A DNA stretch of 20,575 bases from IMG/VR virus record IMGVR_UViG_3300001533_000239, positions 1-20,575 of that record; one strand, given 5' to 3'. The DNA comes from a virus. Under the pieces are notes generated by a model, which saw nothing but the letters and a program-made list of their open reading frames with translations, had not been told where the DNA came from and searched no databases. This document shows positions 5,503 through 19,891 of the stretch, in pieces (positions within the stretch are counted from its first letter, which is position 1; the number at the start of each line of letters is the position of its first letter). A program made the translations under genes and the position numbers.

Positions 5503-8500
5503 TTAGTTGAGCCTCACAGTTCCACGTCGAATTTCACGACGTAATTGGCTTGCTATATTTCTAACTGTAGTTTCAGATGTATCCCCACCATGTACCGTTA
5601 CGTTAATATCACCAACATTGGTTACTGGACCACCTGACGCCATGTGCTTAGGTGATGTATGTAGTGCTCGAATTATTGGATAGAACTGACGTGTAGTACG
5701 TGCATCCCAAACATACTCACCTGGACTTAGCCATACTGGTATGCGATCTGTACCTCGTGGACTACCTGGAAAACCGATGGCACCACCTGATGCACGACGT
5801 TGAACACCTACACCACCTGCTCCACCACCACCGCCTCTACGTAATAATTCAAGTTCTCTACGTAATAATTCAAGATGTTCTCTACGTTTTCGCATTACTC
5901 GATCTAACACAGCAATTTCACGTTCACCAGATTTTTCAGCAGCAGTTGCAACCGATCCAAATAACTCAGCTAATGTCGCATGTTGTAATGCCATTTCGTC
6001 ATAGATAGCTGAAATATCACCCAATTTCTTATTAGCGTCTATAAAAGTATCACGTGCTTCATCTAATTCTCTGTTGGTTGTGGCTAGCTCAGTACGCATT
6101 TGTTCTAATGTAGTCCCACCAATCTCAAATTCACCTTCATCATTGAATAAATTAGGACCAAATGGATCACCAATGTTGAGTCCAAGACGCCATACGCCTT
6201 CAAACTTTATCATATCAATAAATAATCGATGTAAAATCTCCAATGCAGCTTGTCGTTTTTTCTGTATCTCCAGTGTGGCTTCTTCTGTCAAATTACCTTT
6301 TGCTAATTGATTATTGTAACTTTCAACGTCTTTTGACGCTTGACTAAATTGCGATGTTAAATCTTTCCATTCTTTCATCTTAGATTTATCCCAACGAGGG
6401 ATTTCAACACGTAATTCACCTGCTGCACCACGTAATAAATCAACTCGCTTTTGTACGTCTCCAGTAGATTCACTAATCTTTTGATTAAAATGTATCAAAG
6501 CATCATCTCTTTGTTTTCTTTGTTCTTCTAGTGCCTTTTCAGCAGTTTTCAATTCTTGTTCGGATACATTCAATCTATCCTGAGCCATTTGTAATTCAGC
6601 TTGCTTAGCGATTTGTACACGTTTTTGCCATGCTGCTTCAAAAATCTTTAAGCGTTGTTCTTCTGTTAAATTTGCTGATTTTGCCGCCTCTTCTGCTTGC
6701 TTCAACAATTTATCATAATTAGCTAAAGCATCTTCCCCCGTTTCACCAAATTTATGTATTTCTTCAATACTTTTACTTAATGTTTCAAGTGATTTTTCAC
6801 GTTCCTTTAATTCTATTGCTTCGGCTTTGGCTTGTGCTTCTTTTTCTTTTGCCATTTTAGCTTCAAATTCTTGTCGATCTCTGAAATTATCACGTCTACG
6901 TGTTTCAACAGACCTATCATCTTCTAATTGTGAAAGAGTAAATAAGTCTTTTTGTATGTCTTCCATTTCTGTTTTAACTCTATTGATCTCACCAGAAATA
7001 CGTTTGTATGCATTGCTTTCAGCTCCATCAGGAGCATGTTTAGCAATACGTGAACGTTTCTTTTCTAATTTTTCAAGTTGTTTGTTAAGTTCAATTTGCC
7101 TTTCGGCATATTGACTGAATAAATCTTTCGATTTTTCACCAGAAAACTTATCACGATAATTGGCATACATTCGTTGTAACTGTTTGAACTTACGTTCAGC
7201 AGCTTTGACTTCACCTTGTGACTGTAATTGTATGATTTCTCTTTGTGTTGCTGCTATTTGTTCTTGTGCTTTTTTCTCTTCTTTAGCAGATTTTTCTCTG
7301 AATTTTGTTTCTAATTTTTCTCTATCTTGTTGTAATCCTTCTAACCTATCATACATACTGTCAATTAAATCAAAAAATTCTTCTGCTTGTTCCACATTAC
7401 CTGCTTGAACAGCTCGTTGCAAATGATCTTTTAACTTAGCGATTTGATCTTCAAGTAATTGCGCTTTATCAATTGGATCATCAATCTGTTCTAACTCAAA
7501 ACTGACGCGTCGTTCATACTCACCGTATTTTGATCTTTCTCGTTGTTGTTTTAATCGATCCGCTTGTCGTTGTGCATCTTCTGCTTGACGTTTGAACTCA
7601 TTAAGATTTTTCTTAATGTCATCAACAGAATCACTAAATGTATTTTTGATATTTTCACTTGTTGTTTTAATTACTTTCTCTAATTCCTTAAGTGTTTTAC
7701 TGTATGTACTTCGTATTTCAGCAGTTGCTTTGTAAAATGCACGAAATTGCTCTGTTAAATACTCATCAATTTCATCATTGATCTTTTGGAATGTATTCCG
7801 CCAAGCCTCAAATGTTTTGGTCGCCGATTCCAATGTTAATTGTTTTTGATTTTCAGCAAACTGTTCCAATCTTTCATCTGCACGGCTTAAGTAATCAACA
7901 AGTGAAACAATACCAAAAATCACAGCAGGCAGCACAAATCCAGAAATACTAGACCAAACACCTTTTAATACATACGATGTTGCAGCTAATTTGGATTGTG
8001 CGAGTTTGATTCCATGTAAAGCTGTATTTAATTTTTTCAAACTAACAGTGTATAATTCAGTAGCACGTTTGATTGTGTACCAAATAACTACCGTAGCAGC
8101 TAAGTCACGCATCACGATTATAGTATCTTCGATACGGTTTGCAAATCCACCGATCGTTTCGTTGATGCTTACAACAGACTTATTAAATGATATTGCATAG
8201 TCAACAGTGAAAAGATTTTTAATTTCATTCAATGCGATATCAATTTTCTTACCATCTGTTTCTAAAACATCAGCTAACGCTTTTGAAGAATCCTCTTGTG
8301 CTGTTCTAAATTGCTCAAGATTCATTTCTAATTGATCCCATGCGCCTGTAGTTGTTATAGCACCAACTAATCCACGAATCTCATTAAATATCTTACCCAA
8401 TTCTGCAAGTCTATCACCACTAGCTACAGCCTCTTCATTTAACATACGCATTACATTAAAGAATCCATAAGCCGCAATAGCAGCTTGACCAGAAGTTACA

Positions 8501-9711
8501 CCCCATTTTTCAAATATAGCTTGCATCGCCTCCGATGGCTTAATCAATTCAATCATCACGTTACGATAATAAGTCATAGCTTCACTGATCTTGAGACCTT
8601 GAATCGTCATAACATCCAAGACAGCTTGCTGTTCAGTAAATGTAATACCTAATTCATGTGATAGCCGACTAACACGGCCAAGTGATTCACTCAACTCGTC
8701 CAATCTGAACTTACCCAAATCAACTGACTTAAAAAGTATAGCTGAAATCTTAGCTGTATCACTAATATCGTAATTGAAACTGTTAATAACACCTGATGTA
8801 ACATTAACTGCATCTTCTAATGATGATTGTGCAATTACTGATAGCTTATTGACCTCAGTCATATATTCAAGTACATCAATACTCTTACCAATCTGATTCG
8901 ACAATGCTTCATATGCACTACGTGTAACGTCTAAAATATCACTACCATATAAATCACTTAATTTACGTAGACCATCAACCCAAATATCAGATGTAATCGT
9001 AGCTTCATACGTAATAGTTTGGATTTCACCAATAGCTATTGATAAGTCTTTAGCTGTATGCGCAGCTTCAGACATCTGTGCTGTTGCTAGATGCAACGCG
9101 CGATACAAGAGTTGAACTTCCAAGATACGAAATGCAGCACCCCAACTAAGATTCATACTCCTAGCAGCTGCTGCGGCTTTATCAGCTAACTTTTTTCGTC
9201 GTCTAAGTGATTGATGATATATTGTATCAATATGTCTTATACGTTTGGCTTCTTCCTTTGATGCTATTCGTTCTTCTCTAGCCCTAGTTTTATTTACACG
9301 ATCTAATTCACGTTCAAAATCCTTAATACGTCTTAATCTGGCTTTTTCTTCTTTAGCTTCTTGTGCTGCTATCTTACGTTGTTCTATTGCTTGGGTTCTA
9401 GCTGCTGCTAATTGTTCTTTCTTCTTGACATTTGCTTGTGCGACCAAATTAACATTAACTTGCATCTGTTTATTTATGTTACGCCAAACAGCACCTTGAC
9501 GTTCCATCGTCACTGTTAGTTTTTTCTCAGCATCCGTAAACTCTAATGCTAATTTTTTAGCATTGGACGTACCGGATTCCATATCAGCATATATTTTAGT
9601 TAATTTATCTATGCTTAAATTATGTTCTTTTATGGCTTTATTCAATACATTTATTGCATTAACGCCAGCAGTGGTGTCAAAATCAATAACTTGACGTAGA
9701 TCCTTGGCCAT
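5503..9711 (-). CDS. Tail tape measure protein, 1402 aa
   Basis: The tape measure sets tail length, fills the tail tube and is delivered at infection. Residues ~90-180 are charged coiled coil. Residues ~200-500 match the conserved core of tape measures (SYEALSNQ-type helices, SVIAQSSLEDAVNVTSGVIN, SLGRVSRLSHELGITFTEQQ, ISEAMTYYRNVM). A hydrophobic segment lies at ~585-608 (SSISGFVLPAVIFGIVSLVDYL region). Residues ~620-1180 are long coiled coil rich in K, E, R and Q. Near the C-terminus are a Gly run and the typical ASGGAIGFPGSPRGTDRIPVW / LSPGEYVWDARTTR segment. No peptidase or lytic domain was seen. AGAGGAAGG ahead of the ATG lies within the end of the previous gene. At ~1.5 Å per residue the tail would be ~200 nm. 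Confidence 0.95.
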   Translation of the reverse strand: MAKDLRQVIDFDTTAGVNAINVLNKAIKEHNLSIDKLTKIYADMESGTSNAKKLALEFTDAEKKLTVTMERQGAVWRNINKQMQVNVNLVAQANVKKKEQLAAARTQAIEQRKIAAQEAKEEKARLRRIKDFERELDRVNKTRAREERIASKEEAKRIRHIDTIYHQSLRRRKKLADKAAAAARSMNLSWGAAFRILEVQLLYRALHLATAQMSEAAHTAKDLSIAIGEIQTITYEATITSDIWVDGLRKLSDLYGSDILDVTRSAYEALSNQIGKSIDVLEYMTEVNKLSVIAQSSLEDAVNVTSGVINSFNYDISDTAKISAILFKSVDLGKFRLDELSESLGRVSRLSHELGITFTEQQAVLDVMTIQGLKISEAMTYYRNVMIELIKPSEAMQAIFEKWGVTSGQAAIAAYGFFNVMRMLNEEAVASGDRLAELGKIFNEIRGLVGAITTTGAWDQLEMNLEQFRTAQEDSSKALADVLETDGKKIDIALNEIKNLFTVDYAISFNKSVVSINETIGGFANRIEDTIIVMRDLAATVVIWYTIKRATELYTVSLKKLNTALHGIKLAQSKLAATSYVLKGVWSSISGFVLPAVIFGIVSLVDYLSRADERLEQFAENQKQLTLESATKTFEAWRNTFQKINDEIDEYLTEQFRAFYKATAEIRSTYSKTLKELEKVIKTTSENIKNTFSDSVDDIKKNLNEFKRQAEDAQRQADRLKQQRERSKYGEYERRVSFELEQIDDPIDKAQLLEDQIAKLKDHLQRAVQAGNVEQAEEFFDLIDSMYDRLEGLQQDREKLETKFREKSAKEEKKAQEQIAATQREIIQLQSQGEVKAAERKFKQLQRMYANYRDKFSGEKSKDLFSQYAERQIELNKQLEKLEKKRSRIAKHAPDGAESNAYKRISGEINRVKTEMEDIQKDLFTLSQLEDDRSVETRRRDNFRDRQEFEAKMAKEKEAQAKAEAIELKEREKSLETLSKSIEEIHKFGETGEDALANYDKLLKQAEEAAKSANLTEEQRLKIFEAAWQKRVQIAKQAELQMAQDRLNVSEQELKTAEKALEEQRKQRDDALIHFNQKISESTGDVQKRVDLLRGAAGELRVEIPRWDKSKMKEWKDLTSQFSQASKDVESYNNQLAKGNLTEEATLEIQKKRQAALEILHRLFIDMIKFEGVWRLGLNIGDPFGPNLFNDEGEFEIGGTTLEQMRTELATTNRELDEARDTFIDANKKLGDISAIYDEMALQHATLAELFGSVATAAEKSGEREIAVLDRVMRKRREHLELLRRELELLRRGGGGGAGGVGVQRRASGGAIGFPGSPRGTDRIPVWLSPGEYVWDARTTRQFYPIIRALHTSPKHMASGGPVTNVGDINVTVHGGDTSETTVRNIASQLRREIRRGTVRLN
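5835..5874 (-). repeat. Tandem 21-bp repeat inside the tape measure gene
   Basis: The 19-base string ctctacgtaataattcaag occurs at 5835-5853 and again at 5856-5874, a period of 21 bases. It codes two copies of a LELLRRE-like heptad just before the Gly-rich C-terminal region. One-heptad duplication is a plausible way for a coiled-coil ruler to grow. Confidence 0.75.
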
Positions 9712-9714
9712 TGG

Positions 9715-10236
9715 CTACACCTTCCTCTCAAAAATGTAGTCGTGGATTTGTGGAATCCTGTCACGTAAATTAGTATCAATATAATTATCCATAGCCACAA
9801 ACCCTGCATCTAAAGCGTGCCAAGGAGCACTTGCTACATTTGGATGTGAATCAGTTTCAAGAAACAACCAATGGGGTACTAAAGTATACCAATCAAAAAC
9901 ATACTGAAAAGCACCATACTGATTACTACGTACGGTTAGAAACTTAGAACCCTTACCAAAAGATGGACCTTCAGCTAATCGACTACGAGCCCAATTATCA
10001 TTACGCTTCGGGTTGATGGGTACATCAGCGTCAAACCCTTTAGATAGCAGCCATGCTGCAAGGGGTTTTAGAGAAGCTCGTGCCATACCAGTATAAACAG
10101 GTACGTTGGGAACCACAGCTTGTATCCACATATACACAGCTTCTTGTAATACCTGTGTTATCTGCGATTCAAGTTCTCTTCGGAACTTTTTGTCATCAAA
10201 CATTATTTCTTTAAGCACGAGTTTTGTTTTGAGCAT
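9715..10236 (-). CDS. HK97 gp10-like tail completion/minor tail protein
   Basis: A 173-residue protein with the signature of HK97-gp10-like (tail completion or connector) proteins: an N-terminal helix with RRELESQITQVLQEAVYMW, then VPVYTGMARASLKPLAAWL, which matches the family's P-x-x-TG-x-x-R-x-S segment. The middle holds RSNQYGAFQYVFDW and WLFLETDSHP; the end is helical (ALDAGFVAMDNYIDTNLRDRI). ATG at 10236 is preferred because it overlaps the stop of the frameshifted chaperone product (TGATG); an in-frame GTG one codon upstream (10239) is the alternative. The family usually lies before the tail-tube gene, but here the gene sits between tail chaperone and tape measure, so its role could be tail-initiator or tip related. 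Function is inferred. Confidence 0.7.
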   Translation of the reverse strand: MLKTKLVLKEIMFDDKKFRRELESQITQVLQEAVYMWIQAVVPNVPVYTGMARASLKPLAAWLLSKGFDADVPINPKRNDNWARSRLAEGPSFGKGSKFLTVRSNQYGAFQYVFDWYTLVPHWLFLETDSHPNVASAPWHALDAGFVAMDNYIDTNLRDRIPQIHDYIFERKV

Positions 10237-10427
10237 CACATTACCTTGACCCCAGAAAGTTCGGCCTCTTCATATTGTCTACCAATATCATACTCTATCA
10301 TACATAATTGTGTCCACCAATCGATATCATCCCAATTATCTTTTATACCTGGCGGTTTTACTCCGAATCTTTCGCAGGCACGCCAGATGGAGTAGTCTCC
10401 TGTTCTCCCATTTGGGAGCTTAGATCG
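10236..10427 (-). CDS. -1 frameshift extension of the tail assembly chaperone (GT-type product)
   Basis: The -1 frame relative to the chaperone gene is open from 10469, just after two TGA codons at 10475-10470, to a TGA at 10236-10238. It fills the otherwise empty gap after the chaperone stop. Counted from the candidate slip site it adds 63 residues, including DYSIWRACERFGVKPPGI and NWDDIDWWTQLCMIEYD, then a charged EEAEL end. This resembles the T domain of GT chaperones: an FG-x-x-P turn, then an aromatic helix, then a charged helix. There is no good independent start. Its stop overlaps the next gene's ATG (TGATG). The slip site is not canonical: AGGAAAC at 10433-10427 is one base off GGGAAAC, and TTTTATA at 10457-10451 is an alternative. 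If slippage occurs at AAC, the fusion is 219 residues. Confidence 0.75.
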   Translation of the reverse strand, partial: RSKLPNGRTGDYSIWRACERFGVKPPGIKDNWDDIDWWTQLCMIEYDIGRQYEEAELSGVKVM

Positions 10428-10894
10428 TTTCCTCGCCCCGCCTGCATACGTATAAAACGTGCTCGCGCCTCATCATAGCGCTTTTCCGTGATCCCATTGG
10501 CCTCAAACATTGCAGCAATGATTCGTTGAACCTCATGGTCAGTAAGACCAGATTCAATCAATTCATCTTTCCATTGCAGCCAAGTATCGGGATTCAACAT
10601 CACAACACGTTCCCATTCAAGTCCCTCAGTTGCTTCGAGAGACTTAATTAACATGTATGAAAAACGTAACTCACGGATCTTATCCAACTTTTTGATATAT
10701 TTTGCATCGTTCATATCACTTTTAACTGTACCATCCTTATGCCTAACAGTCGGTGGCTTAGGCTCTGGGCACAATTTATCAAACTCATCCATATTCAAAA
10801 CAGCTTGTAACTTAAAAACATGATCACCATTATCCCGTGGGATTACCACAACTTCTGGTTGCGGTCGAGAAATAGTTTTGCCATGAAGTTTCAC
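10358..10894 (-). CDS. Tail assembly chaperone (gpG-like, upstream frame)
   Basis: A 178-residue soluble protein placed between the tail-tube and tape-measure genes, where siphoviruses encode the chaperones that bind tape measure and tube subunits. It is alpha-helical, with KLQAVLNMDEFDKLCPEPKPP, a lysine-rich linker, ELRFSYMLIKSLEATEGLEW and a C-terminal helix EANGITEKRYDEARARFIRM. It starts at GTG 10894: AGGAGG lies six bases before it, and no in-frame ATG is nearby. The polar last ~22 residues are replaced by the frameshift extension in the longer product. Sequence alone gives only a weak family match; position, size and the open -1 frame make the assignment firm. Confidence 0.85.
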   Translation of the reverse strand: MKLHGKTISRPQPEVVVIPRDNGDHVFKLQAVLNMDEFDKLCPEPKPPTVRHKDGTVKSDMNDAKYIKKLDKIRELRFSYMLIKSLEATEGLEWERVVMLNPDTWLQWKDELIESGLTDHEVQRIIAAMFEANGITEKRYDEARARFIRMQAGRGNDLSSQMGEQETTPSGVPAKDSE

Positions 10895-10915: not shown

Positions 10916-11401
10916 CTATGTAATCGCAGCACGTACGGTCGTAGGCATCACTTCATTACACTTACCAGACACGCTACACGTGCCAGCACGAAGATCCCAA
11001 TCCAAGCTCTCATATCGAAATTCACTGAATGTAATCTTCTCACCGACTGTAGTACCACAATCAGGTTGATACTCAATCACAATATCAACAGCATATGGTT
11101 CACATGCATCATCACCAGACGATGCCCAACCAGATGCCGCACCGGAATTCTTAAACGCCTCATTAGGCGTCACATCTTCAGCACCTTGGGACTTGATCCA
11201 TTCCCAAGTAAAATCCATATTCAATTCAACGGGAACTTCATCACCTTCCTTGACATTGCTAATAGTACCACGATCAAGAACATACTCCATATTACGCTTT
11301 TCACTCCACGTCACATTACCTTCACCGATCTTAATTGTGATGCTATTTGCACCACCATCAAGAATCTTAACATACGCGTTTTTAATGTCGATCTGTGCCA
11401 T
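10916..11401 (-). CDS. Major tail tube protein
   Basis: A 161-residue beta-rich protein expected to stack in rings to form the tail tube. Visible features are an N-terminal strand pair (IDIKNAYVKILDGGANSITIK), WSEKRNMEYVLDRGTISNVKEG, EVPVELNMDFTWEWIKS, a variable central loop with GAASGWASSGDDACEPY, and closing strands ITFSEFRYESLDWDL and AGTCSVSGKCNEV. The DEVPVELNMDF strand with a following helix is typical of siphovirus tube proteins. GGAGAG precedes the ATG, overlapping the end of the previous gene. It lies directly before the tail chaperone gene, the usual order, and its G+C is higher than in the tape measure, as expected of an abundantly made protein. Confidence 0.85.
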   Translation of the reverse strand: MAQIDIKNAYVKILDGGANSITIKIGEGNVTWSEKRNMEYVLDRGTISNVKEGDEVPVELNMDFTWEWIKSQGAEDVTPNEAFKNSGAASGWASSGDDACEPYAVDIVIEYQPDCGTTVGEKITFSEFRYESLDWDLRAGTCSVSGKCNEVMPTTVRAAIT

Positions 11402-12580: not shown

Positions 12581-13975
12581 TTAACCGAGAAGGACAGCCC
12601 CAAGGTTAGTATCAAGAACAGCCGTACCAAACAACGCATCAAACGTCACTCGGTGGCCTTGGATTTCACTATCATACTGAATCACAACACGCATCGACAT
12701 TCCATTGTAACTGGCAACAGCGGCACGAGCCCCAGCACCAGCCAACGGTAACGCGAGCGGACGGTTGACAAGAGCCACAGCATTGCGATGAAACGCAAAG
12801 TTGTAGTCGCCAGTCGGACCGTAGTTGACAAGATCGTCATCAGCAAGAGCAGTCTCAAGAGGACGATCAAGAACAATGTCATAATCACTACCAGCAGTAT
12901 TGGTAACGTCAACAATCACGTACTCAGGAGTACGTAACGTGGCCGAAGCCAAAGCGTCACCATCACCGAATGAAACAAGTTGCCCGATTTGTGGTACAGG
13001 CGATTCACCTAAGCCACCATCATCAACATGGATTGCCTTAACGTAACCACTATCGTACCCATCACCCAAATCAACAGCACCAGTCGGGTACTTGGTAACA
13101 GTCGCACCAGTGGCCGTAGCCTCACGAATGGCTCGCGTAGGCGTTAAAGTCGTGGTGTTAGTGGTACTACGAAGCGGAGTCATATCACCAACAATGGTGA
13201 CATAACGCCCCTTACCAACCGCAGCCGTGATGGCAACCGAAGCAGCACCAGCAACTGAATTGGCCGTAGTCGTGGTCGTGGACGTTGTTTGCGTAGCTAC
13301 CGAAGGCGTATTCAGATCCATGAAAGTCTCAAAACCGAACTTACGGCCAAGAGACGCCTCACGCATCGCACGACCACCATCGCCCACACGCTCAGCGCTG
13401 ATGAAGAGATCAGTCTTCAACATCTGAGCTTCAGAATTAGCTGCAAGAACAAGATTTCTACCAGTCTGGTAGACTTTGTTCTCATTCATCTTCTGACGTG
13501 CGGACACAAGATACGAGTGGGCATTGCTCGACGACAGTTGGCCAAGACCACCAGCCGTATTAGCAAGGAACCCAACAGCACGACCAAGAACACATTGATC
13601 AAGGAATCGAGCATTGGCAAGCATCGCAGGATGCAGGTACATCTGTACCAAATCCTTAAACGCCCAGCTTTGCTCAGCGTCCTTGATTACAAACGAAACG
13701 TGGACATGCTGATTCAACGGCACCTGCACGTTAGTAGCCGAAGCATCTTGATTCTCAACAGAATCAGCAGCAGTCTTACGCTTAGCCGTGAATTCAGACG
13801 GCTTACGAGTATGCACCAAATCACCATAATCAGCAACCTCATCCTCAAAATCACGATGCACAAGATTCGCAGCAACCATTTCCTCTTCGAGGATTAAAAG
13901 CGACTCATTAGCCCAAAGCTCGGGAACGAGAGCATCAACATCGTTAACATACACGGGAACGAAAGGCGTAAGCAT
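12581..13975 (-). CDS. Major capsid (coat) protein, P22-like
   Basis: The 464-residue coat protein forms the icosahedral shell with the HK97 fold. It matches P22-type coats: an N-terminal LVPELWANESLLILEEEMV, HRDFEDEVADYGDLVHTRKP, FTAKRKTAADSVENQDA, LNQHVHVSFVIKDAEQSW, FKDLVQMYLHPAMLANARF, a Thr-rich start of an insertion near residue 230 and, at ~393-408, FAFHRNAVALVNRPLALP. It is slightly longer than P22 coat (430). No maturation protease is seen nearby and the scaffold is separate, as in P22. AGGAGA lies before the ATG, overlapping the scaffold end. Sampled lines are ~55% G+C against about a third in the tape measure, consistent with codon selection in a highly made protein or with separate origin. 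The N-terminal PFVPVY is shared with the scaffold. Confidence 0.95.
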   Translation of the reverse strand: MLTPFVPVYVNDVDALVPELWANESLLILEEEMVAANLVHRDFEDEVADYGDLVHTRKPSEFTAKRKTAADSVENQDASATNVQVPLNQHVHVSFVIKDAEQSWAFKDLVQMYLHPAMLANARFLDQCVLGRAVGFLANTAGGLGQLSSSNAHSYLVSARQKMNENKVYQTGRNLVLAANSEAQMLKTDLFISAERVGDGGRAMREASLGRKFGFETFMDLNTPSVATQTTSTTTTTANSVAGAASVAITAAVGKGRYVTIVGDMTPLRSTTNTTTLTPTRAIREATATGATVTKYPTGAVDLGDGYDSGYVKAIHVDDGGLGESPVPQIGQLVSFGDGDALASATLRTPEYVIVDVTNTAGSDYDIVLDRPLETALADDDLVNYGPTGDYNFAFHRNAVALVNRPLALPLAGAGARAAVASYNGMSMRVVIQYDSEIQGHRVTFDALFGTAVLDTNLGAVLLG

Positions 13976-19329: not shown

Positions 19330-19581
19330 TCACACCGTTGCTATGATTGTTTCGATCATTTCCACACCACTTACTGCATTATCTGTATCTGCTGGTGACC
19401 CACCAGCTTGTTCATAAATTGCGTAGTATTTAGCAGGAGATCCAATAGAAGCGGATGCAAATACATTACCAGCGACAACATTTAATGCAACTACATCATC
19501 ACCCCAAGGTGCTTGCACTAAGGGTAATGGCTTAGCATAATATGTACCAGCAGGTAATTTTGCGTAAATTGTTTCAGCCAC
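19330..19581 (-). CDS. Small protein, second copy of a tandem paralogue pair
   Basis: This 83-residue protein aligns along its length with the preceding gene: IYAKLPAG, YYAKPLPLV, PWGDDVVAL, SIGSPAKYYAIYEQAGGSP, TDNAVSGVEMIETI. By eye about a third of positions are identical. The GTG start at 19581 is supported by alignment of its N-terminus (AETIYAKLP) with the paralogue's ATG start. A weak AGGAC lies upstream, partly in the previous stop region. It is probably a small beta-rich soluble protein. Function is unknown; the position between sulfotransferase and TerL suggests virion or packaging use, but nothing in the sequence proves it. Confidence 0.7.
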   Translation of the reverse strand: MAETIYAKLPAGTYYAKPLPLVQAPWGDDVVALNVVAGNVFASASIGSPAKYYAIYEQAGGSPADTDNAVSGVEMIETIIATV

Positions 19582-19582
19582 G

Positions 19583-19891
19583 TTATAGTCCTAAGTTGTG
19601 TCCAATTTCCAACGAAGACTCATAACCCAATTCACCGACAGATACAATAAAGATGTTTTCAAGCATCTGAACAATTCCAATAGTTGTATCTGTTATTAAA
19701 GGATCATCACCACTACGCAGAAAAACAATATAATAGTCTGACGGACTATTGATTTCACTTGACCAATACCATGCTGATGCTTCTTCAGGTAATGTGATGA
19801 CATCATTAGCCCATGGATCTGAAACAATGGGCAGCGGCTTGACATAATAATTATTACCTGTAGGTAATTGTGCATAAATGCGCTCGCCCAT
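19583..19891 (-). CDS. Small protein, first copy of a tandem paralogue pair
   Basis: A 102-residue protein beginning GERIYAQLPTG, followed by YYVKPLPIVSDPWANDVITL, SPSDYYIVFLRSGDDP, TDTTIGIVQMLENIFIV. It shares the IYA-LP-G, YY-KPLP-V, PW-DV-L, SP-YY and TD blocks with the next gene, but has about 20 more C-terminal residues (ELGYESSLEIGHNLGL end). AAGGAG lies before its ATG. The gene pair is separated by only one base between stop and start region. No known family is recognised, and no membrane segment or signal peptide is seen. Confidence 0.72.
   Translation of the reverse strand: MGERIYAQLPTGNNYYVKPLPIVSDPWANDVITLPEEASAWYWSSEINSPSDYYIVFLRSGDDPLITDTTIGIVQMLENIFIVSVGELGYESSLEIGHNLGL

Follow-up and report, generated by a model that had tools for sequence, protein, structure and literature searches.

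A -1 extension of a putative phage tail assembly chaperone and a conserved T_TTT as its probable slip site

In the window (the whole stretch of DNA analysed here, a 20.6-kb IMG/VR record that is a single metagenomic contig), the stop codon of a putative tail assembly chaperone gene is followed by a stretch, 10357-10240, that no start-bearing ORF occupies. The locus thus raises the question of whether the chaperone continues into this stretch in the -1 frame and, if so, where ribosomes would change frame. We consider it highly probable that the locus encodes a tail assembly chaperone of the G/GT type, which a -1 slip at T_TTT fuses to a T domain. Frameshift systems of this kind are known; the slip site is a variant, and the phage family has no isolate in the collection searched. 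The genes concerned, in the order in which they are read, are these.

Positions 10916 to 11401, minus strand: putative major tail protein, upstream neighbour of the chaperone, assigned by position only.
Positions 10358 to 10894, minus strand: putative tail assembly chaperone, zero-frame product (G-like), 178 aa, GTG start.
Positions 10236 to 10457, minus strand: -1 frame extension (T-like domain), including its TGA stop; the -1 relation is kept in 274/275 loci.
Positions 9715 to 10236, minus strand: next gene, 173 aa, whose ATG overlaps the -1 stop; present downstream in 10/13 relatives that reach the chaperone.
Positions 5503 to 9711, minus strand: tape measure protein (PF10145, E 1e-19; PHROG tape measure families).

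The chaperone is flanked upstream by the putative major tail protein, and one additional gene separates it from the tape measure. Its zero-frame ORF (10894-10358) terminates with TAA at 10360-10358, while the -1 frame, once past a TGA at 10472-10470, stays open from position 10469 to a second TGA at 10238-10236, giving a predicted fusion of about 147 + 72 = 219 aa. The final A of this TGA is also the first letter of the following ATG (10236-10234). An earlier note, made from the letters of the window, had proposed a hidden -1 extension, the lack of an independent gene after the chaperone stop and the overlap of the -1 TGA with the following start, and each of these points is borne out here. 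The putative major tail protein lies directly 5' of the chaperone in relatives too (39-54% identity); it is single in the window and occurs in two tandem copies upstream of the chaperone in L005, L006, L010, L012 and L013. Pfam and PHROG searches with the 173-aa product of the next gene returned no family match. The same gene, which lies ahead of the tape measure, has the stretch 'VPVYTGMARASL', reminiscent of HK97 gp10-like neck proteins. The capsid protein (12581-13975) is a member of the P22 coat protein family (PF11651, E 8e-31), in a genome that also carries a tape measure gene.

As a direct query, the window chaperone retrieved relatives neither from IMG/VR nor from phage records; these were recruited via the capsid protein, which yielded 15 contigs with 45-58% identity. 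Thirteen of these contigs extend to the chaperone, and each of them has both the chaperone (33-45% identity) and the extension, the latter in the -1 frame (37-52% identity, E down to 5e-23). Since the -1 peptide matches every one of these relatives, and always in the -1 frame, the extension is not a product of chance. Profile scans then gave a set of 279 sequences, 275 of which have both parts; relative to the chaperone, the C-terminal domain ('WRACERFGVKPPG...') is in the -1 frame in 274 of these 275 loci, or in 188 of 189 after duplicate removal. The sole locus with another frame relation (+1) is L168 (2976-3237), which has an eight-T run at the slip site; a homopolymer error or a different shift is possible there. 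Among loci selected on the chaperone, all 78 with a long enough contig carry the extension, and only L050 and L063, whose contigs both stop just past the slip site, are without it, so that the -1 result is no artefact of selecting on the extension. After the zero-frame stop, substitutions at positions 1, 2 and 3 of the -1 codons amount to 0.20, 0.08 and 0.52, and this third-position bias fits a translated frame.

These data bear on two simpler accounts of the locus. An assembly or sequencing error could have split one continuous frame in the window, a single metagenomic contig, but the probability of this is practically nil, given that the same -1 relation recurs in 274/275 loci from many samples, which refutes an error for the family; nor is the -1 frame broken in homologues, the other finding that would have told against the earlier proposal. 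The extension could also be a separate gene that is translated by reinitiation from its own start, with no fusion, and the -1 frame of a few relatives does hold an ATG, GTG or TTG. This is very unlikely, however, because 149 of 188 distinct loci have no start codon before the conserved motif (Arg18), and in the window no ATG, GTG or TTG precedes a Met codon that lies about 59 nt past the zero-frame stop, inside the domain.

If the two frames are joined by the ribosome, the place of the shift has to be found. The overlap in the window holds no perfect in-phase X_XXY_YYZ heptamer, in agreement with the earlier description of the slip site as non-canonical. Two candidates had been put forward, T_TTT_ATA and AGGAAAC; the former was upheld and the latter was not, as the homologous sequences select the T_TTT place.

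Positions 10451 to 10457, minus strand: slip site T_TTT_ATA, made of the wobble T of codon 146, codon 147 (TTT) and codon 148 (ATA).

We compared the heptamers of 189 distinct relatives, anchored on the invariant Phe147, and found T_TTT at the homologous place in 183 of them (TTTTTTA 81, TTTTCTA 50, TTTTCTT 15, TTTTTTG 9, TTTTCTG 7, TTTTATA 5, TTTTTTT 5, TTTTTTC 3, and others). Among the first 113 relatives, codon 146 ends in T in 111, compared with about 31% elsewhere, although the residue it encodes differs between relatives (R, S, L, N, A, D, V and others), and Phe147 is TTT in 110, compared with 56% of Phe codons elsewhere. In 35 distinct loci the -1 frame begins 0 or 3 nt 5' of the heptamer, and the shift therefore cannot lie upstream in those loci; on the downstream side, zero-frame stops 24-36 nt past the site set a bound in many relatives. 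Together, the opening of the -1 frame and the zero-frame stops fix the place at T_TTT and rule out AGGAAAC.

The sequence AGGAAAC (10427-10433, minus strand) had been a reasonable candidate, as it is in phase and one base off G_GGA_AAC. Its position is not conserved, with unrelated sequence at the homologous place in relatives, many of which have already ended the zero frame there or end it within about 12 nt, and the -1 residues between the two candidate places, F-[FSY]-[ST], are conserved. A shift at AGGAAAC is accordingly given hardly any weight. In a separate observation, a long zero-frame tail (codons 148-178) overlaps the T domain in the window and in L005, L006, L009, L018, L031 and L053, whereas in other relatives the zero frame ends 8-12 codons past the slip site.

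A run of T's could in principle also act during transcription, with RNA polymerase slippage producing mixed transcripts. Six or more T's are seen in many relatives, but the window has only four, and the runs at which transcriptional realignment is described exceed 8 T (PMC3711429), which makes this account exceedingly improbable.

With slippage of the ribosome at T_TTT as the preferred reading, the relatives differ in what surrounds the tetramer. The site is a canonical T_TTT_TTN in 98/189, where tandem slippage is possible, and a T_TTT followed by a codon unable to re-pair in 85/189. Among these 85, eight carry a canonical A_AAT_TTT one codon upstream, N_NTT_TTT occurs in 53 (38 XX_TTTTT, mostly G_GTT_TTT, and 15 other N_NTT_TTT), and 24, the window included, have the bare T_TTT tetramer only; elsewhere in the overlap, perfect in-phase heptamers turn up rarely and at scattered places. 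On a quick tree, in which many inner branches are weak and lineages are non-independent samples, CTN sites come together in a single large cluster (about 75 rows, aLRT 91), and the window groups with L021 (TTA), L097 (TCA), L116 (ACA) and L076 (ATT) in a small separate clade (aLRT 83-90) with T_TTT in all members. The window subclade has retained T_TTT as codon 148 drifted (ATA, ACA, TCA, ATT). Compared with the family consensus the window has the weaker slip site, and so it could be a site of reduced efficiency or one that is decaying.

In the window, CGT before TTT and ATA after it exclude a tandem slip, and a one-tRNA (tetramer) slip in the P site is thus to be expected. The conserved frame, the coding nature of the extension and the retention of T_TTT are results computed from the sequences; for the ribosomal mechanism, its efficiency and the role of the protein, we infer the following course. 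The majority of ribosomes would make the 178-aa chaperone, and a minority would slip -1 at T_TTT (10457-10454), where the overlapping TTT again gives tRNA-Phe a perfect match. The shifted ribosomes would continue with TAT ACG TAT... and add the 72-residue T-like domain, which completes the 219-aa or so fusion. If the two products act as lambda gpG/gpGT do, binding of the tape measure would fall to the part they share, and recruitment of the major tail protein to the extension.

Frameshifting at a bare tetramer directs attention to possible stimulators, of which the window offers two candidates.

Positions 10467 to 10472, minus strand: Shine-Dalgarno-like GAGGCG, a possible weak stimulator, about 10-11 nt 5' of the run of T's.
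Positions 10374 to 10445, minus strand: predicted stem (10445-10439 / 10380-10374), a candidate stimulator that starts 5 nt past the slip site.

The former is accompanied by a modest enrichment of GAG at Glu142 (65% compared with a background of 42%) and, over 113 relatives, by a Shine-Dalgarno-like pairing energy of -5.02 compared with a synonymous expectation of -4.25 (sem 0.22). For the latter, the 80-nt fold downstream of the slip site in the window has z = -3.0. No family-wide downstream RNA stimulator was found in any of three analyses of relatives: a 60-nt downstream scan was flat compared with the rest of the gene, true arm pairs of the stem paired no better than swapped pairs (p = 0.40), and RNAalifold on the CTN clade gave no both-sided change. 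Neither Rfam nor tRNA scans of the window gave a hit. The tetramer U_UU.U is barely shifty alone in E. coli and shifts above background only with a stimulator (PMC4066793); a P-site tRNA can, on the other hand, slip when the A-site tRNA arrives slowly, and mRNA structure is not needed for this (PMC6787027, PMC8211752).

It is possible, and we put it forward only tentatively, that the T_TTT slip is refined in this way: a slow A-site codon, ATA in the window and CTA in the large clade, would leave the A site empty ('hungry') while P-site tRNA-Phe slips on T_TTT, with no need of an RNA stimulator. Both codons are used at position 148 far above background: CTA, which makes up 5% of the Leu codons of those genes, accounts for 50 of the 72 CTN-Leu codons at this place, and ATA, with a background of 3.5%, for 5 of the 7 Ile codons. 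No conserved downstream structure was found in the family, and reports describe one-tRNA slippage as independent of mRNA structure (PMC6787027, PMC8211752). Yet the third-base A is also the first base of a Ser/Thr codon (ACN/AGN) in the -1 frame, and this by itself would suffice to explain NTA, and codon 148 is CTT or CTG in 22 loci. Because that A is shared with the Ser/Thr codon, the slow-codon reading is not established. We think it rather improbable, though worth stating, that a large uncultured phage lineage makes its chaperone fusion by a one-tRNA T_TTT slip set by slow ATA/CTA codons, in place of a tandem slip and RNA structure. If the slow-codon reading were true, the stoichiometry of the tail proteins would depend on the tRNA supply of the host.

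What the two parts of the fusion do is approached through fold and profile matches. The chaperone model (pLDDT 92) has YqbN (3klu) as its best solved match, with a middling Z of 6.4 over 100 residues and the next row at 2.8. Weak chaperone hits were to PF08890, phrog_389 and phrog_344; those to the PF08890 profile came from 4/93 members, with a best E of 0.019, none significant and none for the window protein. The family is without a match among 50,697 phage records: a consensus chaperone query matched nothing in phages, and neither did a consensus T-domain query, which gave spurious hits only in plasmids. The T domain had no match in Pfam and no credible fold match in BFVD and PDB, and among PHROGs it matched only phrog_17856 (unknown function, E 9e-5). 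The role is most likely lambda G/GT-like by analogy, because the weak profile hits and the middling fold match combine with the position before the tape measure and with the -1 extension; the T-domain-like role suggested earlier for the extension likewise stands as the best reading.

Such -1 frameshifts in tail assembly chaperones are widespread among tailed dsDNA phages (review PMC5009743). The locus resembles phage lambda gpG/gpGT in having a gene upstream of the tape measure, a -1 shift near the chaperone end and a C-terminal extension without its own start. It differs in protein sequence, in the additional gene between chaperone and tape measure, and in that T_TTT_ATA takes the place of a heptamer; the lambda slip heptamer is G_GGA_AAG. 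A possible likeness to XkdN/YqbN-type chaperones (PF08890 Phage_TAC_5, phrog_389) would lie in the middling 3klu fold match (Z 6.4) and the weak profile hits of a few members, although no E-value is significant and the window protein is without any profile hit.

Frameshift finders mainly target X_XXY_YYZ heptamers. In the family described here the invariant core is T_TTT only, both flanking codons vary, and tools restricted to heptamers would overlook a large share of such genes. The U_UUU/U_UUC sites of the IS1/IS3 families (PMC4066793) provide a parallel, with single-tRNA Z_ZZN slippage and the identical tetramer U_UUU, but a pseudoknot was needed for IS3 in E. coli tests, and no conserved structure was found here. 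Among PRFect motifs (PMC10885494), the G_GTT_TTT of 36 relatives would by name fit the 'twofive' pattern, whereas the bare four-T site of the window is absent from the backward motifs.

With regard to the host, one match was found in a MAG labelled Anaerolinea and was not seen again in 399 other genomes from that phylum. A prepilin-like protein adjoins the chaperone locus in L049 (3867-4952); it is of a kind typical of Planctomycetota, a possible hint of the host. Elsewhere in the window, a weak Sulfotransfer_3 match (E 1e-4, under the curated cut-off) lies at the contig end (20164-20541), and a pair of adjoining small paralogous proteins (MAETIYAKLP..., MGERIYAQLP...) is encoded at 19330-19891.
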